Positions 1,623 through 26,329 of a DNA stretch of 64,000 bases are shown in pieces; position 1 is the first letter of the stretch; each line of letters starts with the position of its first letter. The notes below the pieces were generated by a model, which was not told the origin of the DNA, did not search any database, and saw only the letters and a program-made list of their open reading frames with translations. The stretch is from positions 1 to 64,000 of the IMG/VR virus record IMGVR_UViG_3300010885_020237; one strand, 5' to 3'. The translations under genes and the position numbers were made by a program. The DNA is from a virus.

Positions 1623-2786
1623 TTATGTGGTTGAAAACAATGGTTTAATTGATATATTTACTGGCTTAACTGTTCTTATTTCCAGCCTCATATTCCCCAA
1701 TTCAAATTGTCCTTCTTCTCCTGATTCAAATATAATCTCCTGAAGCTGTCCGATCATATTGGCATCTCTCTCGCTAAACGTTTTAGTGTTTATATAGATT
1801 AGAATATCATTGTCTGGTTGAGCTCCAGATTTAACTCTGTCCGATAAATTGAGTAATGTGTTTGATGATTCTCTAGCTATGTATTCATTCACTAAATTTT
1901 TTTCTTCTACGTATAAAGTGGTGCACCAAGGTTCGAACATATCAAGCATTAATGTGTTTACTATTACGCCTTCAATTATAATACCTATATTATATTTTTG
2001 TGGTATAATTGGATATTGATACTCATCATTTTTAATCCAACTACCCCATTTTCTAAGATAATTTCTTGCCGCTTTGCTACTGGCTTTTTTAAAGTAATCG
2101 TCGTCCTTTCCAATCTCTTGATTCCACCTGTGACCTCTACAAGTTAAGTGATAGACGAGTGCATCTCTTGATTGAATTAACTCATATCCTGCCATGATCC
2201 ATCTTTGAAATATGTCCGAATCTTCGTAAGGGAATGGAGCAAAGATCTTATCATGGCCTCCAACTTTTACGAAGTCTTCTTTATATAGAATCCAAGGAGC
2301 AAACATGCCTTTTGTTGTCTTGTCTTTTTCATGTAGTTGAATCGTATCAACATATTCTTCGAACATCTCAACATTTAAAGAGTCGAAGTCCATACCAAAA
2401 TCTTTAACTATTTTCTCTTTACCTTCTGGGTGTAAGGGAGGTTCTACCCTTGTTCCGCATACTACAGTGCCAGGTTTCAGATGCTTGATCATGTTCTCAA
2501 TATAGTTTGGACCTATAATCATGTCTGCGTGCAAAATTCCTACGATTGAAGTTTCTGCTAATTGAATGCCTTTATCGTATAGTATTGTATGACCAATTCT
2601 TTGTGAAGATCTATATAGAGCAACGATATTATTGTCTTCTATAGAAGATAACCATTCTGTAGTACCGTCTGTAGACCCATCATCTAAAAAAATTATTTTA
2701 GCGCTTGAAGCGTTTCTCTTTATGCTATAGTAACAATTCTTTAAGTGCCTTAAATTATTGCTGGATGGTATTATTAGTGTGATCAT
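1623..2786 (-). CDS. family 2 glycosyltransferase with C-terminal extension
   Basis: This is a GT-A fold glycosyltransferase that transfers a sugar from a nucleotide-activated donor. The N-terminus starts with a strand (MITLIIPSSNN), followed by the DDGSTDGT nucleotide-binding motif near residue 35 and an H-A-D-M segment near residue 86 acting as the metal-binding DxD equivalent. A PFPYEDSD segment near residue 183 looks like the acceptor and catalytic region. About 130 residues after the GT domain are unassigned. It is the last gene of the glycan island. The acceptor cannot be read from sequence; virion protein, DNA or a host glycan are all possible. Confidence 0.85.
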   Translation of the reverse strand: MITLIIPSSNNLRHLKNCYYSIKRNASSAKIIFLDDGSTDGTTEWLSSIEDNNIVALYRSSQRIGHTILYDKGIQLAETSIVGILHADMIIGPNYIENMIKHLKPGTVVCGTRVEPPLHPEGKEKIVKDFGMDFDSLNVEMFEEYVDTIQLHEKDKTTKGMFAPWILYKEDFVKVGGHDKIFAPFPYEDSDIFQRWIMAGYELIQSRDALVYHLTCRGHRWNQEIGKDDDYFKKASSKAARNYLRKWGSWIKNDEYQYPIIPQKYNIGIIIEGVIVNTLMLDMFEPWCTTLYVEEKNLVNEYIARESSNTLLNLSDRVKSGAQPDNDILIYINTKTFSERDANMIGQLQEIIFESGEEGQFELGNMRLEIRTVKPVNISIKPLFSTT

Positions 2787-2790: not shown

Positions 2791-3477
2791 TTACTTTAAT
2801 TGAATTGTGAATGCCCAAATAACATTTGGACTTATAATGTTATAATGAGAATAATATTGAGGATCATTTATTTCATTGCCAACTTCTGACCAATTATTAA
2901 AATCTTCAGAAAAAAAGAATTTCTCTTCTATTATTTTATATCCAACTAAATCCAATTGGTTTTTTAATAACCTTTGTCTTCTAAAATCATATCCTCTTAA
3001 AAATGGTTCTCCTGATTCTTCATAATTCATATAAGGACCAGCTGGGAGAGTTATGATCAACTTAGAGTTTTCGTCTTTTAAAATTTTACATGCTTTAGTT
3101 ATTCCAAGTATGTCATGATTCCATCTGCAAGTATCATCTTCTGCGAGACCATTTGCCATTCTATTTCCAGCGAACCAAAATCCAAAGTGTTCGAACACAG
3201 ATATTGCTATCACGTAATCAAATTTATTAGACTCTTCGAAATCTATGAAGTCAGTACATATATGTTTCCAATCTGTATTATGCTTAAGCCATGCGGTTGG
3301 TTCTACTGGTAAGATATCTGTAGTAGTGACGTCATTATATCCTAGTGATTTAATAGTTTCACTTATACCCTCTACTCCTCCCCATCTTTCACCAATTATC
3401 AATATTGTTTTATCTTCTAATTGATTAGAAAAATATGGTACCTCTACTATTTTAGTTCCTTTTAATTCTATATTCAT
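2791..3477 (-). CDS. class I SAM-dependent methyltransferase
   Basis: The protein has a Rossmann-type methyltransferase layout: a strand with an ILIIGERWGG glycine loop (motif I), an acidic residue after the next strand (TTDILP), then FDYVIAISVFEHFGF (motif IV and post-IV) and a late strand LIITLPAGPY. A longer start at 3540 exists but would overlap the preceding gene by 89 bases; the Met at 3477 reduces that to 26 bases and begins just before the first strand, so I chose it. It lies among glycosyltransferases, so sugar O- or N-methylation is the likely role, by inference from context. Confidence 0.8.
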   Translation of the reverse strand: MNIELKGTKIVEVPYFSNQLEDKTILIIGERWGGVEGISETIKSLGYNDVTTTDILPVEPTAWLKHNTDWKHICTDFIDFEESNKFDYVIAISVFEHFGFWFAGNRMANGLAEDDTCRWNHDILGITKACKILKDENSKLIITLPAGPYMNYEESGEPFLRGYDFRRQRLLKNQLDLVGYKIIEEKFFFSEDFNNWSEVGNEINDPQYYSHYNIISPNVIWAFTIQLK

Positions 3478-4195
3478 CTGTGTAATTTTCTCCATGAGAT
3501 CGTAATGACAAGTAATCGTTAATGTATTCAGAGTTTGCAAAATATTGATTCATGTTTGTTTCAGCTATTCTACAAAATTCTGAAACTCCTATGTTTATTT
3601 TATTTTGCTTAAATGTTTGAGAATTTAAATGACATATAGTATTAGTGTCAGATACAACAGTTGTAAGATTTAATTTATTCGATATACAACCAGTATAAAA
3701 ATCTAATCCCCATCCATATATAAGTTCTTCAGGATATTGTTGTATCTCTTGTAGAATATCTCTTCTTAATAAAGGACTTTGAAAATCTATCCATCTAACT
3801 TCTCGTAATCCTTTACCCCAATTCCACATTTGTTTCCAATGACATTGTTCTACTGATGCATTAATTATAGAAGGAGAATATACTGACGCATCTGAATGTC
3901 TGGCTTCTTGTATTGAGGTACTTAAGAATGATGGTCCGTGGAATATTAAATCATTATTTAGAAAATAAAGATATTCATGATCTGTCTTTAAGAAGTATTC
4001 TAAAACTACATTAAATCCGCCACCGAAAAAAATATTCTGTTCAAGTGCGTGAGTAGTTGATTTAGCGAGTGATTCCTTAGATCCGTTATCTACGACCATC
4101 AATTCACATTGATCAAATATACTGTCTCTTTTTAATTGATCTACTAAATTATCTGTTAATTCTGGTAGATTGTGGTTTAGGGTGGCTATTAACAT
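3452..4195 (-). CDS. family 2-like glycosyltransferase
   Basis: A 247-residue GT-A type enzyme. The start MLIATLNHNLPEL is followed by an MVVDNGSKES donor-binding segment near residue 35, a glycine-rich loop (FFGGGFN) and FLNNDLIF near residue 79, the position of the DxD-like metal site. This resembles rhamnosyl/galactofuranosyl-type GT2 proteins. It overlaps the methyltransferase gene downstream and follows the next upstream gene by 7 bases. Donor and acceptor are unknown. Confidence 0.8.
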   Translation of the reverse strand: MLIATLNHNLPELTDNLVDQLKRDSIFDQCELMVVDNGSKESLAKSTTHALEQNIFFGGGFNVVLEYFLKTDHEYLYFLNNDLIFHGPSFLSTSIQEARHSDASVYSPSIINASVEQCHWKQMWNWGKGLREVRWIDFQSPLLRRDILQEIQQYPEELIYGWGLDFYTGCISNKLNLTTVVSDTNTICHLNSQTFKQNKINIGVSEFCRIAETNMNQYFANSEYINDYLSLRSHGENYTDEYRIKRN

Positions 4196-4202: not shown

Positions 4203-5018
4203 TTATGGTCTTAGTTGGTCAAATTCATAGTATGATTCAAAATCAATTTTGCGGCTAGTTCCAGTATTATCTCTAATCCAATTTTCAATTAATGGAGCTA
4301 AGTCTAACTTATTCATGCTACATCTATTTGATAGATATGGAATATTTCCAGATCTTGATACTAAAAAAGGAAATACGCCTTCAAAATAATATCTATTTAA
4401 GTTTGTGTTATACCATTTATCTGAAATATAATTAAAAAACGTTTTAATTGGCTTTTTACAAATCACGTACATAGTATGTATGTAAAAAAATGGAGCGTGT
4501 GTATACGGTAAGGTATCAGTGAGTATATTTTCAAATAGAGGAATTTCTACGTCTGTCTCTGAATAAACACGATCTTTATTATATTCTAATCCTAGTAATC
4601 CATAGGATCCATATCCTTGAGTGTGTAATAAGTTTTCTATATTAAGTCTTCTATTGATAAGATTATCTATATACCACTGTCTTAAATAATCGCTATGCGA
4701 ATTAACTGCGCCTTTCGTATGAATGAACCAGTAATATTCATATTCAGCATTTGATTTATTAAGTAGTTTTAAAGCAATTTGATAAGCAGAAGCATCACTA
4801 TATGTATATAATGATTCATCATTTAATCTTTCATAAATTATAGACAGTCCTGAGTTTATCAATATATCTTCTACTTGTGGTATACACGCATAATTAATGC
4901 CTATGTATATATCGCTATCGGAGAAATTATTATTAAATGAACTTAAAAATTGATCTAACACAAATAATCTATCTTCACTCATGATTGAACATGCAAATAA
5001 AACGCAACTTTTTTTCAT
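4203..5018 (-). CDS. putative glycosyltransferase
   Basis: This 271-residue protein contains WFIHTKGA near residues 97-104, an H-T-K-G signature I associate with glycosyltransferases fused to or related to rhamnan-synthesis proteins. The N-terminal strand (CVLFACSI) and alternating strand-helix pattern fit a GT-A fold, but a clear DxD is not obvious. It is packed 3 bases after the methyltransferase at 5022. The enzyme class is inferred mainly from this motif and from the surrounding glycosyltransferases. Confidence 0.6.
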   Translation of the reverse strand: MKKSCVLFACSIMSEDRLFVLDQFLSSFNNNFSDSDIYIGINYACIPQVEDILINSGLSIIYERLNDESLYTYSDASAYQIALKLLNKSNAEYEYYWFIHTKGAVNSHSDYLRQWYIDNLINRRLNIENLLHTQGYGSYGLLGLEYNKDRVYSETDVEIPLFENILTDTLPYTHAPFFYIHTMYVICKKPIKTFFNYISDKWYNTNLNRYYFEGVFPFLVSRSGNIPYLSNRCSMNKLDLAPLIENWIRDNTGTSRKIDFESYYEFDQLRP

Positions 5019-5021: not shown

Positions 5022-5642
5022 CTATTTCTTATATAAAAATGCAATTTCAGAAACATTTGCCATTTCTAAAAATACGCTGCTTACATTGTAAGTCAAGTAA
5101 AGTCTCTCTTCATCAGTAATATATTTACTGTCAAAATTTTTATTCTCTATAAACTCTTTGATAAGATCTGTAGTATTTCTATCTCCAGCGTGACAGTATG
5201 CTGGGTGTCCAGCGGTATGCAAATCTTCTATCACATATAATCCACCTGATTTTAATTTAGGGAATAGAACGCCTAAACTGATTTGTTGTTGATGTTGCAT
5301 GTGTCCACCATCATCTATAATAATATCGAATTCTATATCAGTATCAGATAAAAACTTCATTAAATCTTGTCTACTTGATTGATCGCATAAATACATTTTT
5401 GTATTTACTAGTGATAAATTTTCAGGTAAAACAATATCCATTCCATGAATAACTGTATTATTAACGCTAAAATATTCTCTCCACATTTTTGTGGATTCTC
5501 CTTTATCTAGTCCTATTTCTAAAAAATTCTTGCTGTTTTTTCTATACGCAGCGAAATGTTTTTCATAGTATGGTATATAATTATGATATACTTCGCCCTT
5601 ATCAGTATTATATCCGTTTGAAATCTGTAGTAATGTTTTCAT
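5022..5642 (-). CDS. SAM-dependent O-methyltransferase, macrocin/CmcI-like
   Basis: A 206-residue class I methyltransferase. The order of motifs matches sugar O-methyltransferases of the macrocin type: Y-N-T-D-K-G near residue 10, H-N-Y-I-P-Y-Y-E, FLEIGLDKGES (motif I), MDIVLPE, IIIDDGGHMQHQQQ near residues 109-122 with metal-binding Asp and His candidates, and GLYVIEDLH. In that family the metal-dependent active site methylates a deoxysugar hydroxyl. Here it would cap a phage-encoded glycan. It overlaps the next upstream gene by four bases. Confidence 0.85.
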   Translation of the reverse strand: MKTLLQISNGYNTDKGEVYHNYIPYYEKHFAAYRKNSKNFLEIGLDKGESTKMWREYFSVNNTVIHGMDIVLPENLSLVNTKMYLCDQSSRQDLMKFLSDTDIEFDIIIDDGGHMQHQQQISLGVLFPKLKSGGLYVIEDLHTAGHPAYCHAGDRNTTDLIKEFIENKNFDSKYITDEERLYLTYNVSSVFLEMANVSEIAFLYKK

Positions 5643-6475
5643 TTTTTTAATTTTAAATTATATATTGATTGTAATCCAATGCCTAAATAAAGTTTTTTCA
5701 TCTTGTCTATATCGTAATTTTGCCGCTGATCTAACTCGTATTGGTGTGGGTAATGATAATTTTTAAATAGAGGACCTCTTGGAAATAAATCTATACATTT
5801 AGATGCTAATAACCATTCTCCATACCAAGTAAATTCTGATGGGCAATGATCTATAAGATCTTTGAATTTCAAATTATTCGGTTTTAAATAATGCTCTTCT
5901 AATGAAGACCAAACTTTGGTCGACCATATTGTGGGACCAGGACCAAAATCGTATACTATTCCGTCTCTATCGAATACTTTCATTATTTTTTGTCTATCTT
6001 CCACAAAACTTATGTAAGGATCAAAACTTAATGGATTTTTATCCATAAATTCAAATAGTGATTTATATTCATGACAAATCGTGTAAGGCGTATTTTCATC
6101 GAACATGAAATCCCTCTTATAAAAAGGTTTAATAAATAAACAGTCAGAGTCAATGCACAAATAATTTTCACATAAGTTAAGTCTCCAAAATTCTGACTTT
6201 ACTATTTGCTGTCCTATCCATCCTTGATCAGCATTTACTATATCTTCATCAATTAATAAAGTGTAATCTCCTATAAGTTCTTTTTTAAATACATCAAAAT
6301 CTACTTTAGGTACTGATACATAAAACGGTATCGATTCTACATTAAACTCTTTTATACTGGCTAATAATATCTTTACATGATCTAAATCATTGATGTAAGA
6401 TTTGCAATAGAGAACTAATTTTTCCAAGAAATAGATTTTATTTATGATATGATGTATTAATTTTAAACTGCTCAA
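5639..6475 (-). CDS. DUF6492-like polysaccharide-biosynthesis protein
   Basis: The protein contains LVLYCKSYINDLDHVKILL, then SIPFYVSVP, a D-E-D segment, an IDSD motif near residue 118 that could bind a metal, and WSTKVWSSLEE. This pattern matches the DUF6492 family seen in capsule clusters, which are probably glycosyltransferases. The ATG at 6475 overlaps the upstream gene by 38 bases and adds 16 residues not needed by the domain. A TTG at 6427, eleven bases after the upstream stop and preceded by an A/T-rich leader, may be the real start. Confidence 0.7.
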   Translation of the reverse strand: MSSLKLIHHIINKIYFLEKLVLYCKSYINDLDHVKILLASIKEFNVESIPFYVSVPKVDFDVFKKELIGDYTLLIDEDIVNADQGWIGQQIVKSEFWRLNLCENYLCIDSDCLFIKPFYKRDFMFDENTPYTICHEYKSLFEFMDKNPLSFDPYISFVEDRQKIMKVFDRDGIVYDFGPGPTIWSTKVWSSLEEHYLKPNNLKFKDLIDHCPSEFTWYGEWLLASKCIDLFPRGPLFKNYHYPHQYELDQRQNYDIDKMKKLYLGIGLQSIYNLKLKK

Positions 6476-7073
6476 CCTTCTTTAAACCCTTTTTAGAGCA
6501 TTGGAAGTGTGTATGATATCCATCTATAGTATCTTCAGTAAAATATGTTTTAGATATCTGAGATTTAAATTCTAGTAGCATATTTTTTTTAGTCTCATAC
6601 ACTTCAGATATATCCATGAATAGATTAGCATTCCAATTTTCTAAAGCGCTAGGAGACTTATATTCAATAAGAGAATACGGTTTAATACGAGCCAATGCGT
6701 TACCAAAAGAAGACACTAATACATGTTCAAAATGACTATCTATAGAAGAAGGTAATAGTATAGCATCTATATCTAATTTAGCTAAGCATTCTATTTCTAT
6801 ATATTGAATCCATTCGTCTGTTTGTTTATCTTTAATAAATTCAACATTTGATTTTATTAAATTATAGTTATCTATATTTGCCACTTTCCATGAATTAATC
6901 ATTTCATTGTATCTTAAATAACTAGTAGTACTATCGCAATCTCCACCATTAGACAAACATAAGATGTGAAATACAGTGTCTTTATTTTTAACTATAGTTC
7001 CACTCATGCTATACTCTACATCATCAGGATGAGGACTTAAACATAATACGTGATTAAAATTCATGAACTTCAT
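6438..7073 (-). CDS. LmbE/PIG-L family N-deacetylase
   Basis: The N-terminus carries the PHPDDVE zinc motif at residues 14-20, and a second zinc histidine is likely in SHFEHV near residue 115. At 211 residues it is close to the usual family length. Family members remove the N-acetyl group from GlcNAc-type sugars in glycolipids, mycothiol precursors or nucleotide sugars. It is separated by only two bases from the acyltransferase gene at 7076. In this context it would free an amino group on a sugar. The deacetylase family call is strong and the substrate is inferred. Confidence 0.85.
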   Translation of the reverse strand: MKFMNFNHVLCLSPHPDDVEYSMSGTIVKNKDTVFHILCLSNGGDCDSTTSYLRYNEMINSWKVANIDNYNLIKSNVEFIKDKQTDEWIQYIEIECLAKLDIDAILLPSSIDSHFEHVLVSSFGNALARIKPYSLIEYKSPSALENWNANLFMDISEVYETKKNMLLEFKSQISKTYFTEDTIDGYHTHFQCSKKGLKKVEQFKINTSYHK

Positions 7074-7075
7074 AT

Positions 7076-7930
7076 CTATTTTCTTTTTAAGTTAAAGCTA
7101 AATCCATGTGGCGCGTGTATTCTTATTCCATATCTTCTTAAAAAATCCCTAAATGCATCAGTTAGAACATCATGATTTCCTGAATACGTTAAATTCTCTA
7201 TATCAAGAATCAATTTATTTATTTTTATTTTCGGATACTCAACTATTTCAATATTAATTTCTGTATCAGTTTTATAATAAGTTAACAATTCAACAAAATC
7301 TAATATTATTTTTTGAAATATTTTAATTTTATCTTCATGTGCAGGTTCTTCAATATGTTTAATTAGTTTAGCTGGAGATCCTACATATACACCAGATTCA
7401 GTCAAAGATTTTACTACCGTAGAATTAGATCCAACGATTACGTTATCAGCTATATTCACTCCTGACATTATAACCGTTTTCCATCCAATTATCACATCAT
7501 TTCCTATATTAACTCCTGCAAAAGTTGATACTCCTCCTTTTAATACAGAATGCCAAAATCCATGAGTAATAATATCCACTTCATGAGAAAGTCCTACATT
7601 ATTGCCTATTTTTACAGGTCTAGATAGATTTATGTATCCCGTATGTACAACGCAACCATTACCAATTTCTAAATTTGCAAATGGAAAATTAGCGCCTCCT
7701 CCTCCAATTTCAAAGAATCCATATCTAGTAGGACCATAATAAAAATCATCTCCTATATGAATGTTCTCACCGACTATTTTTAATCCATCTCCTATTTTCG
7801 CGTTATCGCCTAATTTAAAATCACCTCTAACTTTAATGTTTATGTTTTTTCCTAACTTTGAATTGTTTCCTATATCAATGTTATTTGCTTCTATGCTAAC
7901 ATTATTATTATATTCTTTGTATACTGCCAT
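7076..7930 (-). CDS. left-handed beta-helix acyltransferase
   Basis: Residues about 10-195 contain repeated hexapeptide units such as IGNNSK, LGKNIN, LGDNAK and IGDGLK, forming a left-handed parallel beta-helix typical of O- and N-acyltransferases using acetyl- or acyl-CoA/ACP. A D-I-I-T-H-G-F segment near residue 120 carries a plausible catalytic histidine. The last 90 residues are a separate alpha/beta domain that I cannot name. It overlaps the reductase gene at 7930 by one base and follows directly on from it. Its partners suggest it acylates an amino sugar. Confidence 0.8.
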   Translation of the reverse strand: MAVYKEYNNNVSIEANNIDIGNNSKLGKNINIKVRGDFKLGDNAKIGDGLKIVGENIHIGDDFYYGPTRYGFFEIGGGGANFPFANLEIGNGCVVHTGYINLSRPVKIGNNVGLSHEVDIITHGFWHSVLKGGVSTFAGVNIGNDVIIGWKTVIMSGVNIADNVIVGSNSTVVKSLTESGVYVGSPAKLIKHIEEPAHEDKIKIFQKIILDFVELLTYYKTDTEINIEIVEYPKIKINKLILDIENLTYSGNHDVLTDAFRDFLRRYGIRIHAPHGFSFNLKRK

Positions 7931-8577
7931 TATATTAAACCTCCACTTATATTTAAATTTTGACCTGTTATGTATTCAGTTTCAATTAAGTATTTAATTG
8001 TATTATATAGTTCTTCAATTGTTCCCCAACGTTTAATCGGTATACTTTGCTTAATAGGTTCTTTAAAGTCATCTGATATTTTGTGAGTTAATCCTCCATC
8101 AAAGTATCCAAGTTGTAAACTATTGCATGTAATGTTTTTTGATATGTTCTCTATAGCAACTGTCTTAGTTAAACTATCAACAAACCCTTTACAGCCAGCG
8201 TAAATAGCTGTGCTTACAACTGGATGATCTGCTAGTACTGAGGATGATAAAATTATTCGTCCGAATTTTTTCTCTCTCATCTGTAATAAACAACACGATA
8301 CTATATTAATGGTTCCCATGATATTAATATTTAATTGTTTAGATATCTCATGGATATTAGTATCATTGTATTTGTGGATAAAACAATCGTAATTATATCC
8401 ACTTAAGTTTATTACGATATCAACATCTACACTGTTAAAAAAACTTTTAACATCATTATACTCTATAATGTTTATATCGCGAGATCCTATACTAATAACA
8501 CGATAATCATTACATAAAAAAGATTGTACTTGACTACCGAGTCCACCAGTGCCACCAAATAATGCGATTGTTTTCAT
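7930..8577 (-). CDS. short-chain dehydrogenase/reductase, FabG-like
   Basis: A 215-residue SDR. GGTGGLG near residue 8 is the NAD(P) glycine motif, NLSG occurs in the middle, a serine cluster (ILSSSV) precedes the YxxxK pair in YAGCKG, and the C-terminal end has TGQNLNISGG. These features place it nearer FabG than the nucleotide-sugar epimerases. FabG enzymes reduce 3-oxoacyl-ACP to 3-hydroxyacyl-ACP. The gene lies between a ketoacyl synthase III gene (8592) and an acyltransferase gene (7076), which supports a role in making a 3-hydroxyacyl group. Confidence 0.8.
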   Translation of the reverse strand: MKTIALFGGTGGLGSQVQSFLCNDYRVISIGSRDINIIEYNDVKSFFNSVDVDIVINLSGYNYDCFIHKYNDTNIHEISKQLNINIMGTINIVSCCLLQMREKKFGRIILSSSVLADHPVVSTAIYAGCKGFVDSLTKTVAIENISKNITCNSLQLGYFDGGLTHKISDDFKEPIKQSIPIKRWGTIEELYNTIKYLIETEYITGQNLNISGGLI

Positions 8578-8591
8578 ATAGTGCTCTTATT

Positions 8592-9530
8592 TTATTTTTC
8601 CCATTTAATTAGCGCGGTACCCCATGTCCATCCTGATCCTACAGTAGCTAATAGTACTAAATTATTATTATTTAATGATTGATTATTTATCATGTGATGT
8701 AATGCTAAAGGAATAGATGCAGCCGCTGTATTAGCATACTTATCCATCACAGTTATAACTTTTTCAAATGGAATGTCTATTTTTATTGCTATTGTTTTTA
8801 ATACTGCGATACCCGGTTGATGAGGAACTAAATAACTTATCTGATCTATTGTAGTATTATTCTTAGTAAGTATACTATTAATTGCTATGGGTAATTGCGT
8901 TGTTGCAGCTTCATATACAGCTTTACCATCCATTTTAAAATAACCTCCTATATGAGTGGTAAATCCTTCTATGCCAGTGCTATCTGCATGTATGTCTGTA
9001 GATATCCAACCAGTAGTTGATTTAGATAATACGATTGCCCCAGAACCGTCTCCAAAATATACACAATCTCTGCTGAGCTTATCTGTTATTGTAGAATAGG
9101 TTTCAGACGCCACTAAAAGTATATTCTTATAAGAGTCGTTATCTATTAATGAACTAGCTATATTTAATCCGTAGATAAATCCAGAACACACAGCATTAAT
9201 ATCAAAACACGGACATGTCGCTTTAAGCTTTTCTGCTACTATACACGCAGTAGATGGAGAAATTCTATCAGGACTTGATGTTGCCAATATAATCAAATCT
9301 ATATCATCTATATTTAATTTTGAATTCTCTAATGCATTTTTAGCAGCATTAAAAGCTAAGTCAGAAGTTTTTTCGTCTTTGCTTACCCAACGTCTTTCTT
9401 TGATTCCTAAATAATCTAAAGGCCAATTTTCACTAGTATTGTAAGTATCATGTAAGTACTTATTTGTTATGACATTATTTGGAACGTGTACTCCTATTCC
9501 TTTAATTGCTACTTTGTATTGTTTAGACAT
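8592..9530 (-). CDS. 3-oxoacyl-ACP synthase III-like condensing enzyme
   Basis: This 312-residue protein has the full KAS III layout. Cys115 lies in INAVCSGF, His237 in VPHQPG and Asn267 in YANTAAAS, forming the Cys-His-Asn triad; a GDGSGA glycine motif occurs near residue 160. FabH-type enzymes condense acyl-CoA with malonyl-ACP, the first step of fatty-acid chain building. No ACP gene is visible here, so host ACP would be needed. KAS III proteins are rare in phages. Precedent from bacterial glycosylation islands suggests it makes a short acyl side chain for a sugar rather than membrane lipid. Confidence 0.9.
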   Translation of the reverse strand: MSKQYKVAIKGIGVHVPNNVITNKYLHDTYNTSENWPLDYLGIKERRWVSKDEKTSDLAFNAAKNALENSKLNIDDIDLIILATSSPDRISPSTACIVAEKLKATCPCFDINAVCSGFIYGLNIASSLIDNDSYKNILLVASETYSTITDKLSRDCVYFGDGSGAIVLSKSTTGWISTDIHADSTGIEGFTTHIGGYFKMDGKAVYEAATTQLPIAINSILTKNNTTIDQISYLVPHQPGIAVLKTIAIKIDIPFEKVITVMDKYANTAAASIPLALHHMINNQSLNNNNLVLLATVGSGWTWGTALIKWEK

Positions 9531-9533: not shown

Positions 9534-10244
9534 TTATAAGTTTAGATCTCTCTTTACTAACTTAGACCAATTGGAAGAGTTTACATTCTGATGTCTCAAA
9601 TAATGTATTTCATCTTCAGGCATATTATCTTTAGTGTAGTAAAAAGGTTGGTGTATTATCGTATATGGTAGACCTATTCTAAAACAATTAGAGCTCCATG
9701 ATGCAGGAGTATTTGGAGCATATACTGAAAATGTTGTGTCTATAGGATGAGGATATAATTTAAAATCGCCATCAATGATTTCATCATTCCAATATGTTAT
9801 TTCGTAATCATATACATGCTTAAGTAATGGGTCTGATAAATTTAGATCGTCTATTTTAATAGACATTCCAACTTTATGGATATTATATTTGTCTATCAAA
9901 AAAATCATATCGTCTATAAAATTTTCTGGCGTATCATCTATTGGATACACGTCACTATCAGTATAAGCATAATGAGTACTTACGATTTCTACAAATTTTG
10001 GATTTTTGGCTTCGTATGCTAAATGATTTAAAGCATAGCAATTATTGTATTCTGGATTTGTATTAAAATACACATCTAAATTCTCTTCTGTATACCAATT
10101 TAAGAGCGGTTGATATGTAGACATATTGTCTATTACAATAATATTATTGTAATTTCTTGATTTTAATGAGGCGACTAATTTTTTTACAGGTGTTAGTCGA
10201 TCTCTATTTAATATTACTATCGGAGTGTCTTTCATTTTTACCAT
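9534..10244 (-). CDS. family 2-like glycosyltransferase
   Basis: A 236-residue GT-A type protein. PIVILNRDRL opens the first strand, IIVIDNMSTY near residue 35 fits the donor-binding loop, and YAYTDSDVYP near residue 90 has the DxD metal motif. It starts within the last seven bases of the preceding glycosyltransferase gene, showing tight coupling. Specificity is unknown. Confidence 0.75.
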   Translation of the reverse strand: MVKMKDTPIVILNRDRLTPVKKLVASLKSRNYNNIIVIDNMSTYQPLLNWYTEENLDVYFNTNPEYNNCYALNHLAYEAKNPKFVEIVSTHYAYTDSDVYPIDDTPENFIDDMIFLIDKYNIHKVGMSIKIDDLNLSDPLLKHVYDYEITYWNDEIIDGDFKLYPHPIDTTFSVYAPNTPASWSSNCFRIGLPYTIIHQPFYYTKDNMPEDEIHYLRHQNVNSSNWSKLVKRDLNL

Positions 10245-11086
10245 TTATATTTTTTAATTGTTCCGTATTGATCAAATATTGGAGGTTTTCCCCATTTTCG
10301 CATCCACTTAATATAATTTTTTTGTTCTGATTCTATTTGACGTTGAGATGATTTACCTTCATTCTCTTCTAATCTATGACTGCCTCTAGCTCCAAAATGC
10401 CAAACAATAGATTTTGTCGTACATATAAATTGATATCCTTCGTATAACATTCTTAGAAAAAGATCCATATCTTCCCAACTAGCAGGAGCAAATATTGGAT
10501 CATTACCACCAATTTTATCCCAATCTTTTTTGCTGATTAATCCACTAACGCCTTCAGGTTTTGGTATTTGAATATCATTACTTTCCTTTACAGCTTCTGC
10601 GTAATCCTCGAAATAATTTGAATTGAAGTCACTGTGTAAGAATCCAAACTCTTCTTTTCTTACTATCAATGTACCTGGTCTGGATTCTTCATTGAATATA
10701 TTAGGCTGTATTCTATAACTAAATACCCAAGTAGGAATGGTTTGTTTCTTTAGTAGTTCTAATAAAGCTGAGTCCCAATTTTTACTAACATAGAAATCAG
10801 AATGTAAAAACATAATGTACTCAGTCTTAACTTTATCTGCGCAGAAATTCATTCCACCACCGATACCTATTGGAGTATCATTAAGATCTATATAAACTTC
10901 TAAATCGTAAATATATTTTACTTCTTCTAGCCATTCATTAGTACCATCGGTACAATTTTCTGCGTGTATAATAAATTGAGCGTCTTTATAAAAACTATTC
11001 TTTCTTACAGATTGAATTGCTAATTTAAGATACTCTAAATTATTATATGTTGATATACAAAATGTAATTGGACTAGATTGTCTCAT
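10238..11086 (-). CDS. family 2 glycosyltransferase
   Basis: A 282-residue GT2 enzyme. The N-terminus has FCISTYNNLEYL, followed by a donor loop with N-C-T-D-G-T near residue 45 and FLHSDFYV near residue 95 in the DxD position. The PASWEDMDLFLRM segment near residue 200 contains the ED pair common near the GT2 catalytic base. It resembles the proteins at 1623 and 23047 in layout. It overlaps the upstream gene by 14 bases. Confidence 0.85.
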   Translation of the reverse strand: MRQSSPITFCISTYNNLEYLKLAIQSVRKNSFYKDAQFIIHAENCTDGTNEWLEEVKYIYDLEVYIDLNDTPIGIGGGMNFCADKVKTEYIMFLHSDFYVSKNWDSALLELLKKQTIPTWVFSYRIQPNIFNEESRPGTLIVRKEEFGFLHSDFNSNYFEDYAEAVKESNDIQIPKPEGVSGLISKKDWDKIGGNDPIFAPASWEDMDLFLRMLYEGYQFICTTKSIVWHFGARGSHRLEENEGKSSQRQIESEQKNYIKWMRKWGKPPIFDQYGTIKKYKW

Positions 11087-11717
11087 ATAAGCTATTCTGT
11101 TTTTCTTGCCGTTTAATGTCTTTTGGATGATATAATGCCCAAGTTTCGTCTGTGTCTGGTAGATAAGTATATATTTGACAGCCGCATATTTTTTCGTGTA
11201 CTTTACCTTCCCACTTTATCTTAGATTCATTCTTACAGATTCTTGTTTGATAATCTGGCCAATTAATATAGCCTTTCTTATTAACATTCCATCTCCATTT
11301 TGCTATGTGCTCTTTTGTTAATCCTTCAACAGTATTAACTCTTGGTACATGAATACACTCCATTATTCTATTATTATTCAATAGATCTCTTAAGTGTTGT
11401 ATAAGAGGAATGGACAAATACTCATCTGCATCGATAAAGAAAATATAATCCTTTTTGCAATTCTCTTTAATATTATTTTTAAAGTTAGCAAAGTTTTTAT
11501 TTAAAGGAAATGACACAAAAGTTAATCTATCATTAGTAAACTCTTGTTTATATTTAGCTATAACGTCTAAAACAGATTGCGTTACATTGTCAGAATCTAC
11601 TTGGACGATCACCTCGTCATCTTGGCCAGCATAATTACTTAACTGGCTTAATAACCTATCTAATTCTTTATCCTCATTACAGGCTGTCACTGCATAGCTA
11701 AGTGTCACTGGTTTCAT
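11073..11717 (-). CDS. family 2 glycosyltransferase, WaaE/KdtX-like
   Basis: A 214-residue GT2 enzyme of the type that includes lipopolysaccharide core glycosyltransferases. YAVTACNEDKELDRLL at the start is followed by a VQVDSDN loop and YIFFIDADEYLS near residue 95, a clear DxD. RWRWNVNKKGY and WEGKVHEKI later in the protein are typical of this subgroup. It overlaps the zinc-ribbon gene by four bases. Confidence 0.85.
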   Translation of the reverse strand: MKPVTLSYAVTACNEDKELDRLLSQLSNYAGQDDEVIVQVDSDNVTQSVLDVIAKYKQEFTNDRLTFVSFPLNKNFANFKNNIKENCKKDYIFFIDADEYLSIPLIQHLRDLLNNNRIMECIHVPRVNTVEGLTKEHIAKWRWNVNKKGYINWPDYQTRICKNESKIKWEGKVHEKICGCQIYTYLPDTDETWALYHPKDIKRQEKQNSLYETI

Positions 11718-12166
11718 ATATCAAATAGATTGATGTGATCAACTGCTCCAAAGAAATCTTTACCAAAGTTTTCAGTAGAAGAAGGGTCAGATTTATGTGT
11801 TTGGCCTTTATACTTGGCTAATTTTAGTTCTTCTTCTGTAAGTGCAATACTTTTTGTTGCTCTCCATTGCCAATCATCAGAGGTTTTACCAAAAACGTAA
11901 ACTGTACCTTTTCCTTTTATATTAATTGTAATAGGATACCACACTCTTCCAATCTCATCCACTTGCTTAATGTCTTTATAAAGTTCAGGAAACCCATCTT
12001 GATCTTCATAAGCATCAAAATTAAAGTCATCCTCTTTCATTAGATCGTTGGTTTCAAATCCACATGCTACACAAGAGTACTTATTGTAGAATTCATTTAT
12101 CGGTTCAATATTACAGCACTCTTCTTGTTTACAAAGAGGGCACATCATTAATGTTGTGTCTATCAT
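11714..12166 (-). CDS. zinc-ribbon protein of unknown function
   Basis: Residues 9-36 contain CPLCKQEEC and CVACGFET, two CxxC pairs forming a zinc ribbon. The rest is acidic, with a beta-rich stretch around residues 75-100. It sits between glycosyltransferase genes with one- and four-base overlaps, so it is co-translated with them. Its role is unknown; it could be a regulator or an accessory factor. I do not see a catalytic motif. Confidence 0.65.
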   Translation of the reverse strand: MIDTTLMMCPLCKQEECCNIEPINEFYNKYSCVACGFETNDLMKEDDFNFDAYEDQDGFPELYKDIKQVDEIGRVWYPITINIKGKGTVYVFGKTSDDWQWRATKSIALTEEELKLAKYKGQTHKSDPSSTENFGKDFFGAVDHINLFDI

Positions 12167-13473
12167 TATTGTATCTTTTTAAGGGTAGGCAATTCTATCT
12201 TTTTAAGGGTAGGCAATTTTAATTGCATTTGTTTAGGTACTTGATCAAGATATGTGGCTAATACGTTCTTCATCTCTTCATAAGAAAATTTAGTCTTTGA
12301 TTGATGAGCTTGCTGTTTTGCTTTCTCTTGATACTTAGTATATTTTTCAAATACATCTTTTAAGTAAAACTCTGCTTGTTTAATGTCTGGAGAAAACCAA
12401 CTTGATTCAGGGATTAATATGTCTTTAGACGATGCTGAAGGGTGAATTAATTTTAATTCTCCTCCTACCATGCACGTATAATCCATTGATAAGAAATCCA
12501 TGTAGCCTGAATATGCACTAACAATGATTGGCTTTTTTGATAAGCTAAACTCTAATAGAGGTCTACCGAATCCTTCTCCTTTTGTTAAACTAATCATAGC
12601 TTTTACTTTCTCATGATTATATAAATGGTTCATGTCTGAATCATCTACTTCTCCATGTATTAAATATAGATTTGGTAAATCATCAGAATCTATAGCGCTT
12701 CTTATCTGGTCTATTTTCTGTAACACACTATCTCGATCCATTATAGAAGCTCCTCCACCCGATACTTTTAGTATCATTGCGGGTTTATTTTTTTTATTCT
12801 TAAATGTATCTAAGAAAGTTTTTATGGTTAAACCAATATTTTTTCTGTCCTCTCCTAAATCTCCTTGTAACCAATGTCCAACTACTAGATAACAAAAGCT
12901 TTCTTTAATATTATCTAACACAGATACTAAATCTGTTTCAGGAATATCTAGATCTTCTAAAAAGAAATACTTATTTAAATCCGCGCCTTCAAAAATAACT
13001 TCTACTGGCTTTTCTAGTTTAATAATTCTTTTTAATCTACCTTGCTCGTCATTTTCTTGAAAAGAAGATTGATTAAATACCATCTTCGCATGCTCTGAAG
13101 AGACTAACGTAAGATTCATTCTATTTATTCCGTCTATCCAACTTGCATGACATAGATTAGTTTCTATTCCTGCTGTTAAGCCAATATTATATTTTCCTAT
13201 TGGTTGAAATTCATTTGGAATAGTAATTTGACACCAAAAATCTGGTTGTCTTTTTACTTGACCTGTTTTATTTAATAGTGGAGTCAACCATCCCCACTCT
13301 TCTTGATTGGAAGCAATATATCCCCATGGAGTTTGTCCCCATCTTTGAGGAAGTATCTCTATTTCCCATTCATCTTTTTTTAATTCATAAAGGGCTTTTA
13401 CAAAATCCCTTGCTCTACTTCCATATCCACTGACTGTATCTATTGGACATGATATAACTGCGTATTGTTTCAT
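12166..13473 (-). CDS. GT-B glycosyltransferase
   Basis: A 435-residue protein of the GT4/GT1 type. The N-terminus has VSGYGSRARDF and a WGYI segment. The C-terminal Rossmann domain shows CYLVVGHWLQG, and LTKGEGFGRPLLEFSLSKKP near residue 300 carries the E-x7-E donor-binding signature. The last residues repeat L-P-T-L-K-K-I twice, caused by a 20-base tandem duplication at the 3' end of the gene (12173-12218). It probably adds a hexose from a nucleotide donor; the acceptor is unknown. Confidence 0.85.
   Translation of the reverse strand: MKQYAVISCPIDTVSGYGSRARDFVKALYELKKDEWEIEILPQRWGQTPWGYIASNQEEWGWLTPLLNKTGQVKRQPDFWCQITIPNEFQPIGKYNIGLTAGIETNLCHASWIDGINRMNLTLVSSEHAKMVFNQSSFQENDEQGRLKRIIKLEKPVEVIFEGADLNKYFFLEDLDIPETDLVSVLDNIKESFCYLVVGHWLQGDLGEDRKNIGLTIKTFLDTFKNKKNKPAMILKVSGGGASIMDRDSVLQKIDQIRSAIDSDDLPNLYLIHGEVDDSDMNHLYNHEKVKAMISLTKGEGFGRPLLEFSLSKKPIIVSAYSGYMDFLSMDYTCMVGGELKLIHPSASSKDILIPESSWFSPDIKQAEFYLKDVFEKYTKYQEKAKQQAHQSKTKFSYEEMKNVLATYLDQVPKQMQLKLPTLKKIELPTLKKIQ
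12173..12218. repeat. 20-base tandem duplication at gene 3' end
   Basis: The plus strand contains TCTTTTTAAGGGTAGGCAAT twice in succession with a short joint. It duplicates seven codons at the 3' end of the glycosyltransferase gene, giving a repeated L-P-T-L-K-K-I tail. Confidence 0.85.
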
Positions 13474-13480: not shown

Positions 13481-14962
13481 TTAATATGTTAATGGATGAG
13501 GTATAGTTTTAGGTTCTAAAGGTTTAATTTTAATGAATTCAAAAGATGGTCTTGGTTTAAAAGTATCAAAAGTCTCATTGATACCATCGATTATATTCTT
13601 TGCCATCCATCTTGCACTCATCATAGATTCATCTGAGGTAACCCAATCTCGAGCGGCTTTACATACTTCTTCGTATGTTTCAATTCCTCTCCAGTGAGAT
13701 CCGTACTCTTCAACTTGATTTGTTTTTAGAGCATATACTTCTTGAATTTGATCAGCGATGTCTCTAAAGTCTGCTCTATCATCCCATATATAAGGAGTCT
13801 GTACAGATCCTACTAAACTCATATTGCTCGGAAATACTGGGAATGCCCATTTTCCATGTTTTTCATAGGTACCAAAGTGATTAGATGGCACTTCCTTTGT
13901 TGGAGTAAACCAATTGCCTTCTTCATCTTCGAATCTCATTTGATCCTGCATTCCTCCAGTGACTGTTGCGATGATTGGTTTACCACACATCATAGCCTCT
14001 GTTAGACTTAGTCCCCAACCTTCATTAGAAGAAATTAATGCTACTGAATCAACACAGTTATAAAGTAGGTTAAGATCTGATGTTGCTAATTTCTCTTCAT
14101 TGATGAATACATTTTTATGATCATCTGAACATAGTAAATCTATAACTGCTGGTAAATCTGTACCATTTTCGTCTACGGCTTGTGTATGAAGTAGTAATGC
14201 GCATTTAGCTGCGTCTTCTTTTGAAATAGAATCACAGAAATAAGACCATGCAGCAATAAGATCAGATACGCATTTACGTCTAATGTTTCTGGCATTATAG
14301 AATAAAACAAAATCGTATTCTTTATCTCCAAACAATCTCTTTTTTAGATTTTGAACATTCGCATATTCTTCAGGCATAAACTCATTAATCGGATAAAAGT
14401 GTTTCTCATTTATTCCATGAGGTACGTACTTTAAAATCTTTTCTTTGATGCTTTCACCAAGAACCATTTCATTGATGATCTTTGTTTGTTTAGATATTGA
14501 AAACAATGTATCACAAGATTCATAGTATGGTTTATTATACAGTGGAGCTGGTAAATCATCCCAAATATTTAAGTATATTATAGGAAGCGTTTTTCTTATT
14601 TCATTTTCCATTTGAAATAACCATGTCCAATATCTTGGATCTGTGAAAATCATTATCGCATCTGGCTTTTCGATATCGATCAATTGGCGAACTAATTCTT
14701 GTGTACCATATCCACTAATTGGATAGATGTACACTGAAGAATCAGGAATTCCAATTAGTTCATTTGTATTATCACAGATGTCTAATCTTTTGCCCTGATC
14801 AGGGTGATTGATTGCTCCTCCTACATTGACCCAATTAAATACATGAGCTGTATTGACTACAATTTCTCTAGCCATAGTTGAGATACCAGATGTCATTCTG
14901 ATATCATCGCACATGAACAGAATCTTCTTTCTGTCTTTTTTTGGTACATAACCTTCGATCAT
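13481..14962 (-). CDS. GT-B glycosyltransferase, GT4-like
   Basis: A 493-residue protein. KILFMCDDIRMTSGISTMAREI opens the N-terminal Rossmann domain in the manner of GT4 enzymes. The C-terminal domain has VLFYNARNIRRK, and SSNEGWGLSLTEAMMCGKP near residues 315-335 is the donor-binding E-x7-E region followed by GG. It is the first glycosyltransferase gene of the island in transcription order and is seven bases from the GT-B gene downstream. Both may act in series. Confidence 0.88.
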   Translation of the reverse strand: MIEGYVPKKDRKKILFMCDDIRMTSGISTMAREIVVNTAHVFNWVNVGGAINHPDQGKRLDICDNTNELIGIPDSSVYIYPISGYGTQELVRQLIDIEKPDAIMIFTDPRYWTWLFQMENEIRKTLPIIYLNIWDDLPAPLYNKPYYESCDTLFSISKQTKIINEMVLGESIKEKILKYVPHGINEKHFYPINEFMPEEYANVQNLKKRLFGDKEYDFVLFYNARNIRRKCVSDLIAAWSYFCDSISKEDAAKCALLLHTQAVDENGTDLPAVIDLLCSDDHKNVFINEEKLATSDLNLLYNCVDSVALISSNEGWGLSLTEAMMCGKPIIATVTGGMQDQMRFEDEEGNWFTPTKEVPSNHFGTYEKHGKWAFPVFPSNMSLVGSVQTPYIWDDRADFRDIADQIQEVYALKTNQVEEYGSHWRGIETYEEVCKAARDWVTSDESMMSARWMAKNIIDGINETFDTFKPRPSFEFIKIKPLEPKTIPHPLTY

Positions 14963-15260: not shown

Positions 15261-16160
15261 TTAAGATTTACTGCAAAGTTCTGGTTTATCTTTAAACTCA
15301 CACCATTTGCAACCGTCAAAATTCTTTGGATATTCCCTATCTATATACTTTGCATCTGTGGTAAAACAATCTCTAATAAAAGCTTCGAACTCTTGTACAG
15401 CTTTTTTAAGTTTGATCTTGCCTTGAGCGGGTATAATCTCTTGTACCCAATGAGTAGGAAAATCTTCGCTAATGAAAGGTCTTCTTTTAACGATCATGAA
15501 TTGTACATTAACTTCGTCTGGAGTTATTTTTAATGCTCTAGAATAGAAATGTTTATAGAGTAGAAGCTGCGCAAGTTTTGCGTCATCCTTTTTATCAGCT
15601 TCTTTCCAACCTGATCCACTAGTTTTAAAATCTATAATATTATAGGTTTTATTTACTTCATCATAGAAAATAATATCTATATAACCAATCATAATAACAT
15701 TTGGTATGTCTTCTATGATATACTGTTCCATTGGAATCTCTATACCAACCAATTTTATTTGCTTAGTTGAAAAATACTTCTTACGATGCTTCTTAATCCA
15801 ATTTAATATATTAACTCCATCTTGGATAAATGTAGTGAAGTCGTCTTTCTTAACGTAATGCTCGCCTTTATTTTTCTCTATCTCTTCTTTGTAATTAGTG
15901 AGCATACGCTCTTTAAGAAAGCTCTCAAAGTCAAATTCTTCTGATGCTTTTACTGTTACATCATACATCAATCTTAAGTACTCTTGAATAGTTTCATGAA
16001 AGCTGGTACCAAATAAAGTGTGAATGCTTGGTTTAAATATCTTATGCTTCTTGATGTAGTTTAGATACCATCTAAAATTACACTGCTTGTACATAGAGTA
16101 CTGAGAATACGATACAGATTTCTGATACGCATAATTAATTTTAGATTCATGTTTTGGCAT
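15261..16160 (-). CDS. Cas4/AddB-like PD-(D/E)XK nuclease
   Basis: A 299-residue protein. SYSQYSMYKQCNFRW holds one conserved cysteine near residue 27, GTSFHETIQEYL has the H-E pair of motif I, and GYIDIIF followed by YNIIDFKTS is the D...(D/E)xK core. The C-terminus carries CKWCEFKDKPELC. One N-terminal and three C-terminal cysteines fit the iron-sulfur cluster of Cas4- and AddB-type nucleases. There are no CRISPR genes here, so a role in phage DNA recombination or end processing is more likely, as in other phage Cas4-like proteins. Confidence 0.85.
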   Translation of the reverse strand: MPKHESKINYAYQKSVSYSQYSMYKQCNFRWYLNYIKKHKIFKPSIHTLFGTSFHETIQEYLRLMYDVTVKASEEFDFESFLKERMLTNYKEEIEKNKGEHYVKKDDFTTFIQDGVNILNWIKKHRKKYFSTKQIKLVGIEIPMEQYIIEDIPNVIMIGYIDIIFYDEVNKTYNIIDFKTSGSGWKEADKKDDAKLAQLLLYKHFYSRALKITPDEVNVQFMIVKRRPFISEDFPTHWVQEIIPAQGKIKLKKAVQEFEAFIRDCFTTDAKYIDREYPKNFDGCKWCEFKDKPELCSKS

Positions 16161-17395: not shown

Positions 17396-17782
17396 TGGAG
17401 GAGATGCGGGGATTCGAACCCCGGTCTCCGTAAGTAATCATAATACCCTTCTTACATGCTTAGTCATACTGTACACAGTGACAAGAGTTCGATCTGCAAG
17501 CTGATCAGTATTGGGGTCGTACGGCTACGTACAACTAGGCCACCACTTGGTTTAAGTCCAAGAACTATTTTTGTAACTTACTGTTCCATCCAAGTTACCA
17601 GGAGAAGAAATCTTAAGCTGCTACAGCCATTTCTACATTGGCAAAAGCCATGTTGATAATGCGTGCACCTTCTTCTTGACGAGAAATTGTATTGTCGTTT
17701 ATTTTTTTAGGAGTGGTTTGACGCTCCCACGTCTTGCATGTGATACTACCATTCTCATACGGATCAAATGCCTGTCATCCCC
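17396..17782 (-). ncRNA. ssrA: transfer-messenger RNA
   Basis: The 5' end GGGGATG at 17782 pairs with CATCTCC at 17406-17400 (one G-U), followed by T and an encoded CCA. The T-arm is CGGGG-TTCGAAT-CCCCG. The block GACTAAGCATGTA at 17453-17465 matches the conserved segment before the tmRNA 3' domain. Near the 5' end GACG/CGTC with GGAG/CTCC can form pseudoknot 1, followed by an A-rich run and an open tag frame ending A-V-A-A-stop. tmRNA with SmpB frees stalled ribosomes and tags proteins for proteolysis. No smpB gene is in the window. Confidence 0.9.
17613..17699 (-). other. tmRNA tag reading frame
   Basis: After the A-rich run the frame AAC GAC AAT ... GCA GCT TAA is open for 28 codons. It starts N-D-N-T and ends M-A-V-A-A, similar to typical tags that begin N-D-x-N and end A-L-A-A, but is about three times as long. 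The exact resume codon (AAC or GAC) is uncertain. Confidence 0.75.
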
Positions 17783-18583: not shown

Positions 18584-19293
18584 AATAAATTTATTTTATG
18601 GTGTTTGTTTATCAAATACCTTGATTTATTCAGAACTCTTTCTGCTTCTGACATGCTTGAATATATTATGTCATCTATCATTATTTTTTTACCGAGTTTA
18701 TCAACTACTTCTTTAGGTCTTTTTACTCCTTTTAGAGACGATTTTATTTTATTTTTAGTTTCTTCGCTATGTATATAGCCATTATTTTTTCTTGTCTCAA
18801 TAGCTTTAGTATAACTATTTTTAGTATGATTTCCCCTTTTAACGCCTTTAAATTTATTAGATAATATTATCTTTGTTTCTTCTTTGCATTTAGGCATTTT
18901 TCTACCTTTTAAATTCTTATTTCTTTTTTCTATAGCTTCTTCTGACCAATTAAGTTTTCGACCTTTCATTTTTTTACTTATCCTTGATTTCTCATCTTTG
19001 CTTTTAGGTCCTCCTCCTCCATCTCCATTTTCTTTTTTTAAATTTGCCCAATCATTATTATCTACAATATTATAAAGATCACTATAATATAAACCTTGTT
19101 CTTTTAATAATTCTTTATCTTCAGTTTCAAATAAAATTATTGTTTTTATATCTTTAGAAGACAATTTATATTTTTTAATATGATGTAACCATCTTGTACC
19201 ACTACCTAAATATTCAAAAGGATTTTGCTCGGTTTTTCCTAAATACTTTAATCCTCTCGGACTCTCTTTTACATACAAGTATATTTTTTTCAT
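18580..19293 (-). CDS. GIY-YIG homing endonuclease
   Basis: A 237-residue protein. The N-terminus has KIYLYVKES with LKYLGKTE, a variant GIY-YIG core (Y-L-Y...Y-L-G), then FEYLGSGTRW and an E near residue 58. Residues 95-200 hold repeated Lys-rich NUMOD3-like DNA-binding motifs (SEETKNKIKSSLKGVKR type), and an IDDIIYSSMSEAERVL helix-turn-helix-like tail. It is inserted among the lysis genes and overlaps the holin-like gene by four bases. Such genes spread by cutting intron-less or gene-less alleles. Confidence 0.85.
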   Translation of the reverse strand: MKKIYLYVKESPRGLKYLGKTEQNPFEYLGSGTRWLHHIKKYKLSSKDIKTIILFETEDKELLKEQGLYYSDLYNIVDNNDWANLKKENGDGGGGPKSKDEKSRISKKMKGRKLNWSEEAIEKRNKNLKGRKMPKCKEETKIILSNKFKGVKRGNHTKNSYTKAIETRKNNGYIHSEETKNKIKSSLKGVKRPKEVVDKLGKKIMIDDIIYSSMSEAERVLNKSRYLINKHHKINLL

Positions 19294-19296
19294 ACT

Positions 19297-19305
19297 TATA
19301 AATAT
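19297..19305 (-). promoter_or_regulatory. ATATTTATA box
   Basis: The recurring box ends three bases before the GIY-YIG start at 19293, so it is either a leaderless-type promoter or part of the translation leader. Confidence 0.35.
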
Positions 19306-19335
19306 TAAGTATAGCTCAATAAACCATCTTTAAAA

Positions 19336-19554
19336 TTATTTATTTTCGATAACACGTTTATTTAATAACCTCTTTAATAAAAAATACAATATAAATAAAG
19401 ATCCCGAAACACAATAAAAAACGATATCTGCGGCCCAAAACGACCCAGTTATATCCATTATGAATTTGAATATTGCATCGTAACCAAAAGGCAGAAAGAA
19501 CATCGCTAACATTAGAGACATTTCTTTTAGTGTAGTTAACTGTTTTACTGTCAT
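19336..19554 (-). CDS. small membrane protein
   Basis: A 72-residue protein with membrane segments near residues 11-30 (MSLMLAMFFLPFGYDAIF) and 40-60 (AADIVFYCVSGSLFILYFLL), ending in a basic tail. A frame in another phase (19358-19618) overlaps it; I prefer this one for its clean two-span topology and ATG start. It lies after the spanin-like genes, so it may be part of the lysis module. No family is recognised. Confidence 0.6.
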   Translation of the reverse strand: MTVKQLTTLKEMSLMLAMFFLPFGYDAIFKFIMDITGSFWAADIVFYCVSGSLFILYFLLKRLLNKRVIENK

Positions 19555-19601
19555 CAGGATCCATAGTTTTTTTAATTACGTTAATAATAGAGATAAAAAT
19601 T

Positions 19602-19946: not shown

Positions 19947-19947
19947 A

Positions 19948-20256: not shown

Positions 20257-20321
20257 TAGTTACACTTTATTTAATGTGAATTTATTTTTTGCGTAACTAC
20301 CGTAACTAGATTTATTCGTTA

Positions 20322-20744: not shown

Positions 20745-20757
20745 AATTTATTTTTTA

Positions 20758-21360: not shown

Positions 21361-21383
21361 GATATATTAGTCTATTTTATGTA

Positions 21384-21392: not shown

Positions 21393-21395
21393 CAG

Positions 21396-25687: not shown

Positions 25688-26329
25688 TTAAAATTCGAGT
25701 AGACTGTAATGTCTTGGATACACATGTAAATTAGTGATAGCCCAGTGCATTTGTCCTATTTCATAACCAGTTTCTAGTGATACTTTTTCCATTAGCTTTG
25801 CGAATGTATATTGATCATTTGAGAAACCAAATACTAAGTCTATTGATCTTGCGAATACTGTTAGATGCAATCGATTATCTTTAACATAGAAATTAAGCAC
25901 ATCATTACATGGAGTATCGTATTTGTATCTGTCTAATTCGTGTAGTATATAATGAACCACAATTGCTTTACGGGTTTCTGGATTGGATTTTAAATCTTGA
26001 ATGACTCTTTTTAGTTGATCATTATAGTTCCAAAAATAGCCATAATTTGAATTGACTTCTGTTGTACCAGGTACCATCATCTGTTTCCAGATCTTTGCTT
26101 TCTCTCCAATCTCTTTAGCGTCTCTATCTCCTTTAAGATACCAGTCCCATTCAAAGTCAGCGTAATCTAAATTAAACTTTCTTTCAGGAGTTGTGATAAT
26201 CTTATCTTCAGGATACAATAGAGTAAATGATTCATTGAAGATCGCTTTAGTACCTGCGTAATCTTCTCCTTCTGTCATTATCTTTTCATAGATAGCTTCA
26301 AATGCATAAGTTGCGTTATTGTACTTCAT
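25688..26329 (-). CDS. thymidylate synthase-family protein, probable hydroxymethylase
   Basis: A 213-residue protein of the ThyA fold. The nucleophile is Cys141 in DTPCND, and RSIDLVFGFSND (161-172) is the phosphate and base-binding motif. Position 172, where thymidylate synthase has asparagine, is aspartate, the residue found in dCMP hydroxymethylase of T4. Family members methylate dUMP or hydroxymethylate dCMP or dUMP using folate. It is short compared with ThyA (264) and T4 gp42 (246). It is followed upstream by dCMP deaminase and dUTPase genes with small overlaps. Confidence 0.8.
   Translation of the reverse strand: MKYNNATYAFEAIYEKIMTEGEDYAGTKAIFNESFTLLYPEDKIITTPERKFNLDYADFEWDWYLKGDRDAKEIGEKAKIWKQMMVPGTTEVNSNYGYFWNYNDQLKRVIQDLKSNPETRKAIVVHYILHELDRYKYDTPCNDVLNFYVKDNRLHLTVFARSIDLVFGFSNDQYTFAKLMEKVSLETGYEIGQMHWAITNLHVYPRHYSLLEF

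Follow-up and report, generated by a model that had tools for sequence, protein, structure and literature searches.

The viosamine island of Pseudomonas syringae (vioA/vioB/vioM/vioR/vioS/vioT/acp) directs the formation of Qui4N(3-hydroxy-1-oxobutyl)2Me, a sugar bearing N-3-hydroxybutyryl and 2-O-methyl groups; within it VioS is a KAS III, VioR a reductase and VioB an acyltransferase, and deletion of vioR abolishes the modified sugar (PMC3927599). The phage gene cluster described here resembles both this island and the P. aeruginosa PAK glycosylation island in bringing together a KAS III, a 3-oxoacyl-ACP reductase and a hexapeptide (left-handed beta-helix) acyltransferase with a methyltransferase and glycosyltransferases. 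Unlike the viosamine island, the block is phage-borne, encodes an LmbE protein in place of the VioA aminotransferase, is accompanied by many more glycosyltransferases and has a KAS III belonging to a virus-only clade. The viosamine island also holds an ACP gene; none was recognised in a motif screen of the 93.7-kb phage record, which may be incomplete. The fabH genes of rumen viral contigs have been interpreted in terms of fatty-acid metabolism (PMC5704599), and no report of a phage module for acylated sugars was found in the open-access literature.

The window, that is the whole stretch of DNA analysed, comprises positions 1-64000 of a virus record that is 93,677 bases long, and encodes a tail sheath, baseplate-type proteins, a DNA polymerase, RNR and GroEL. 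Four genes of its cluster (Table 1) are transcribed from high to low coordinates in the order KAS III, reductase (SDR), acyltransferase and LmbE deacetylase, with spacings of 14, -1 and 2 bases, which bears out the original prediction of four adjacent genes with gaps of at most 14 bases. The enzyme families assigned to them were likewise recovered, all Pfam matches being above the gathering score (PIG-L 7e-10, Hexapep 3e-8, adh_short_C2 4e-24, ACP_syn_III 1e-22 and ACP_syn_III_C 2e-27). The four-gene block is real and far beyond chance, since the same cluster in a second contig carries orthologues of the block genes that are 58-66% identical, and median dN/dS amongst close viral pairs was 0.08-0.10 for all four families. 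As judged from their sequences, none of the four enzymes has lost its catalytic residues, and each is subject to purifying selection.

Table 1. Genes of the phage cluster and one gene outside it (positions in the window)
Feature	Position	Strand	Basis
GT2 glycosyltransferase, conserved 3' flank of cassette locus, 43% to immuto	1623..2786	-	Pfam, immuto collinearity
Possible methyltransferase (weak sequence evidence)	2791..3540	-	sub-threshold Pfam matches only
GT2-like gene, strongly conserved in locus	3452..4195	-	Pfam, synteny
Conserved cluster gene	4203..5018	-	conservation
Probable methyltransferase (Methyltransf_24 / PHROG 21658)	5022..5642	-	PHROG methyltransferase match 1.6e-26
DUF6492 glycosyltransferase-like gene, syntenic partner	5639..6475	-	Pfam, synteny
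LmbE/PIG-L de-N-acetylase	6438..7073	-	Pfam, HPDD and HxxH motifs
Left-handed beta-helix (hexapeptide) acyltransferase with C-terminal domain of ~85 aa	7076..7930	-	Pfam, His123
Short 215-aa SDR, FabG/PhaB-like 3-oxoacyl reductase	7930..8577	-	Pfam, S113/Y126/K130, fold comparison
KAS III (FabH-like beta-ketoacyl-ACP synthase III), virus-specific clade	8592..9530	-	Pfam, PRK09352, triad, tree
Glycosyltransferase-like gene, syntenic	9534..10244	-	no Pfam match
GT2 glycosyltransferase	10238..11086	-	
GT2 glycosyltransferase, conserved 5' flank	11073..11717	-	
Conserved 150-aa protein of 5' flank	11714..12166	-	
GT4-type glycosyltransferase, conserved 5' flank	12166..13473	-	
GT4-type glycosyltransferase, conserved 5' flank	13481..14962	-	
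PD-(D/E)XK nuclease, 5' border of cassette locus	15261..16160	-	
dCMP 5-hydroxymethylase-like gene, cytosine-type Asp (RSIDLVFGFSND), outside cassette	25688..26329	-	best PDB match T4 gp42

The KAS III passed the NCBIfam model PRK09352 (NF006829) with 309 bits against a cut-off of 249, and fell narrowly below TIGR00747 (fabH; 279.8 versus 292.1 bits). Its Cys-His-Asn triad, predicted to be intact, was indeed present (C115/H237/N267), with the motif HQPG where HQAN is usual, and amongst 73 viral KAS III sequences Cys and His were found in all and Asn in 72, with one gap. By inspection, Ser91 aligns with Phe87 of the E. coli FabH pocket wall, a position occupied by Ser in 66 and by Ala in 6 of the 73 viral proteins. 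The Phe87 wall of short-chain, E. coli-type FabH is therefore lacking, a feature that does not define KAS III overall; given the prevalence of Ser at this position, the acyl chain may not be C4.

A single-sequence scan of viral sequences gave no matches and alignments were needed; alignment-based scans of IMG/VR retrieved 72 viral KAS III loci, so that the idea of such sets being absent from phages is not supported. Matches to KAS III and the reductase in an annotated phage collection fell mostly in unannotated, host-like records and were not counted as support. Maximum-likelihood analysis placed 34 of 37 viral KAS III proteins (dereplicated at 80%) in one virus-only clade (SH-aLRT 95-96) beside the KAS III of Bacteroidota; added Bacteroidota sequences, three of six extra matches having been left out, remained outside it. 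The proteins of loci L154, L161 and L165 lay outside the clade, whilst that of L015, host-like in look and 37% identical, was not used. The KAS III of the window, L004, L005 and L006 constitute one subclade, which suggests that the lineage of the window phage acquired this gene once. Bacterial contamination as the source of the viral KAS III contigs was rejected: amongst 32 long contigs, matches above the cut-off were obtained for a tail sheath in 12 and for a gp23-type capsid gene in 14, and the clade holds no sampled bacterial sequence.

Polysaccharide clusters of Bacteroidota, such as those of Pedobacter chinensis and Labilibaculum sp., also have a KAS III adjoining the partner SDR subfamily, the best of these bacterial KAS III being 47% identical to the window protein among the matches listed. 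In five bacterial genomes the KAS III-adjacent SDR scored 149-169 bits, versus 71-93 for the next-best SDR, and the partner SDR was rare in sampled Bacteroidota (above threshold in 4 of 395 genomes). The phage SDR has the catalytic residues S113/Y126/K130 and the Rossmann glycine motif GGTGGLG, and the nearest folds to its structure model are those of an ACP-dependent oxoacyl reductase and PhaB. It did not pass the curated FabG equivalog models (best score 105 bits, cut-off 298), and is a divergent SDR, predicted to act in the manner of FabG but not classed as one.

The acyltransferase has hexapeptide repeats and a catalytic His, His123, which aligns with the conserved TH of maltose acetyltransferase and is invariant in 16 phage homologues. 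It scored best against acetyltransferases (NeuD and the galactoside and maltose O-acetyltransferases), with LpxD scoring nearly as well, hence acetyl-CoA is a possible donor. Its AlphaFold model was poor (pLDDT 67) and unsuitable for fold search, and its conserved C-terminal domain (residues ~195-284, DAFRDFxRRYGIR) had no Pfam or PDB match. In the LmbE protein, over the Pfam PIG-L cut-off, the motifs HPDD (residues 15-18) and HFEH (114-117) were identified; HPDD was invariant and HxxH nearly so in 16 phage homologues.

A gene for the same short SDR immediately adjoins the viral KAS III gene in 40 of the 72 loci, mostly overlapping it. Within 7 kb of the KAS III, neighbour families, whose Pfam identity was set from exemplars, included DegT aminotransferase (61 loci), hexapeptide acyltransferase (58), PhyH-like oxygenase (45) and GDP-mannose 4,6-dehydratase (30), and a partner SDR or hexapeptide acyltransferase lay within this distance in 67 loci. 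These environmental phage loci, which hold KAS III, SDR, hexapeptide acyltransferase, PhyH-like oxygenase, DegT and often the dehydratase, share the KAS III clade, SDR family and locus type of the window, but would employ de novo amination instead of deacetylation and have a different, shorter acyltransferase. No match to DegT, the dehydratase or PhyH was found in the possibly incomplete record of the window phage.

A scan anchored on the SDR yielded 78 loci, 34 of them with KAS III. All 41 dereplicated SDR loci situated 4 kb or more from any contig end had an amine source (DegT in 33, LmbE in 7 and both in 1), and 37 had an acyltransferase. DegT and LmbE were nearly mutually exclusive (Fisher p 4e-7, uncorrected for shared ancestry, a statistic that overstates independence because a single exchange may account for the LmbE cases), as is to be expected if both supply a free amine; the LmbE deacetylase thus appears to replace the DegT aminotransferase.

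Seventeen contigs, most of them fragments, have the trio of SDR, window-type acyltransferase and LmbE, and 16 of these were without KAS III in a whole-contig search, so that its role as an obligatory step was rejected. The exception is the contig of L006 (IMGVR_UViG_3300047548_001093); the same four-gene set does therefore occur elsewhere, its complete form having been seen in the window and L006, whilst L004 and L005 carry KAS III but reach contig ends. KAS III would accordingly rank as an optional booster or accessory of the module.

The cluster occupies a locus whose flanks are shared with a cultured phage, Flavobacterium phage immuto (MW353175), a distant collinear relative of the window phage (sheath 46%, tube 60%, recombinase 62% and GroEL 56% identical), and this kinship makes a Bacteroidota host likely for the latter. 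In both, the PD-(D/E)XK nuclease, two GT4 genes, the 150-aa protein and a GT2 gene on one side and a GT2 gene on the other are collinear, but the centre is wholly replaced in immuto, which is without KAS III, such a reductase, LmbE or a window-type acyltransferase. At least two of the five 5' flank genes were found together in 47 loci, in 29 of which the GT2a flank follows the variable centre. Roughly nine cluster genes are glycosyltransferase-like, close to the eight or so predicted, of which five pass Pfam glycosyltransferase cut-offs; the adjacent methyltransferases also predicted are weak at the sequence level, one being a probable and the other a possible methyltransferase (Table 1). The immuto genome also has, at 18607-37015, a complete-looking 7-deazaguanine DNA modification set (QueC, QueD, QueE, FolE, DpdA and QueF), as annotated.

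The organisation of this cassette locus resembles that of bacterial O-antigen loci. Tentatively, it may represent a phage O-antigen-like 'glycotype' locus, in which constant flanking glycosyltransferases enclose an exchangeable centre, including a virus-specific KAS III-reductase-acyltransferase kit, giving acylated amino-sugar coats on virions (or DNA) that differ between close relatives. It would seem that phages possess exchangeable machinery for unusual sugar coats, in which related viruses share the same kit with interchangeable parts, and immuto, if this is true, becomes a test case for the purpose of swappable phage glycans.

With gene content, catalytic residues, conservation, co-occurrence and cassette exchange read directly from the sequences, we infer the reactions, chain length and acceptor as follows. 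The block is best regarded, with a probability of roughly 0.68, as a viosamine-island-like module that N-acylates an amino sugar supplied by deacetylation, not by de novo amination, and whose glycan is most likely placed on a virion protein. LmbE would deacetylate an N-acetylated sugar or sugar nucleotide, or perhaps a finished glycan, to leave a free amine, whilst KAS III would join acetyl-CoA or some larger acyl-CoA, as primer, to host malonyl-ACP and the FabG-like SDR would reduce the 3-oxoacyl-ACP. The hexapeptide acyltransferase would then transfer the 3-hydroxyacyl group to the sugar amine, and the methyltransferase and glycosyltransferases would complete the glycan and attach it. KAS III would serve to boost the acyl supply, and related phages without it would have to use host 3-oxoacyl-ACP. 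It is from the viosamine precedent, the fold of the SDR model and the scores of the KAS III-adjacent bacterial SDRs that we infer an N-(3-hydroxyacyl) amino sugar as the product, with 3-hydroxyacyl-ACP as the presumed donor. The amino-sugar acylation originally proposed draws strong support from comparison, through the DegT/LmbE interchange, the KAS III-SDR adjacency, the acyltransferase partnership and the viosamine precedent; a requirement for KAS III and a lack of such sets in phages are not supported. If the reading is true, phages contribute a fatty-acid-type building block of their own to a glycan, and the fabH genes of viral contigs gain a concrete function.

A virion protein is the first choice of acceptor, and none of the cluster proteins has a clear membrane span, which argues against export of a surface polysaccharide. 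The same chemistry could instead place the glycan on hydroxymethylcytosine in phage DNA, an alternative that overlaps with the preferred explanation and that we consider somewhat unlikely. DNA is a possible acceptor because the window phage has the dCMP-hydroxymethylase-like gene of Table 1, a possible source of hydroxymethylcytosine; similar genes were found in two further contigs (G058 and G003) and in locus L005, and the want of membrane spans also accords with this acceptor. Immuto, however, shares the flanking glycosyltransferases, yet its thymidylate synthase has Asn in the corresponding place, and it carries 7-deazaguanine genes and gave no other hydroxymethylase-like match, so this type of locus is not tied to hydroxymethylcytosine; furthermore, amongst the long trio contigs, a hydroxymethylase match was absent from G004 and G006 and both weak and partial in G017.

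Another reading, which we regard as unlikely, is that the SDR-acyltransferase-LmbE trio yields a sugar with ordinary N- or O-acetylation, with the SDR acting on a keto-sugar and KAS III being a passenger or serving phage fatty-acid synthesis. The scarcity of KAS III amongst trio contigs, the resemblance of the acyltransferase to acetyltransferases and the published interpretation of rumen viral fabH (PMC5704599) would fit such a role, but many viral lineages have KAS III and SDR side by side, as do bacterial polysaccharide clusters with their distinct partner SDR, the SDR fold matches oxoacyl reductases, and nearly all viral KAS III loci have the partner SDR or hexapeptide acyltransferase nearby. 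A role for the block in changing LPS or capsule on the host cell surface, so as to block superinfection or receptor binding, is very unlikely, for although the homologous bacterial KAS III-SDR pairs are located in polysaccharide clusters and one flanking GT2 matches a GtrB-like O-antigen conversion PHROG (9e-11), no flippase, polymerase, ligase or other membrane protein was recognised in the cluster, and the window phage encodes its own replication and nucleotide genes, with no lysogeny gene noticed.

Several other features were observed in these genomes. A miniature DegT aminotransferase of 199 aa, with the PLP-lysine region retained, is encoded at 10375-10974 of locus L009 and in many viral loci, as well as in Synechococcus phage S-SCSM2R and the huge phage LR756502 and, more distantly, in immuto. 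Beyond the window, near the tail fibre genes at 71961-80994 of the same record, translations inspected by eye included sulfotransferase-like, adenylylsulfate-kinase-like, nucleotidyltransferase-like and GT9-like ORFs, together with several oxygenase-like ORFs. The window phage also harbours, at 17396-17782 and adjoining tRNA genes, a full-length tmRNA gene (Rfam 68.8 bits) with the tag DNTISRQEEGARIINMAFANVEMAVAA.
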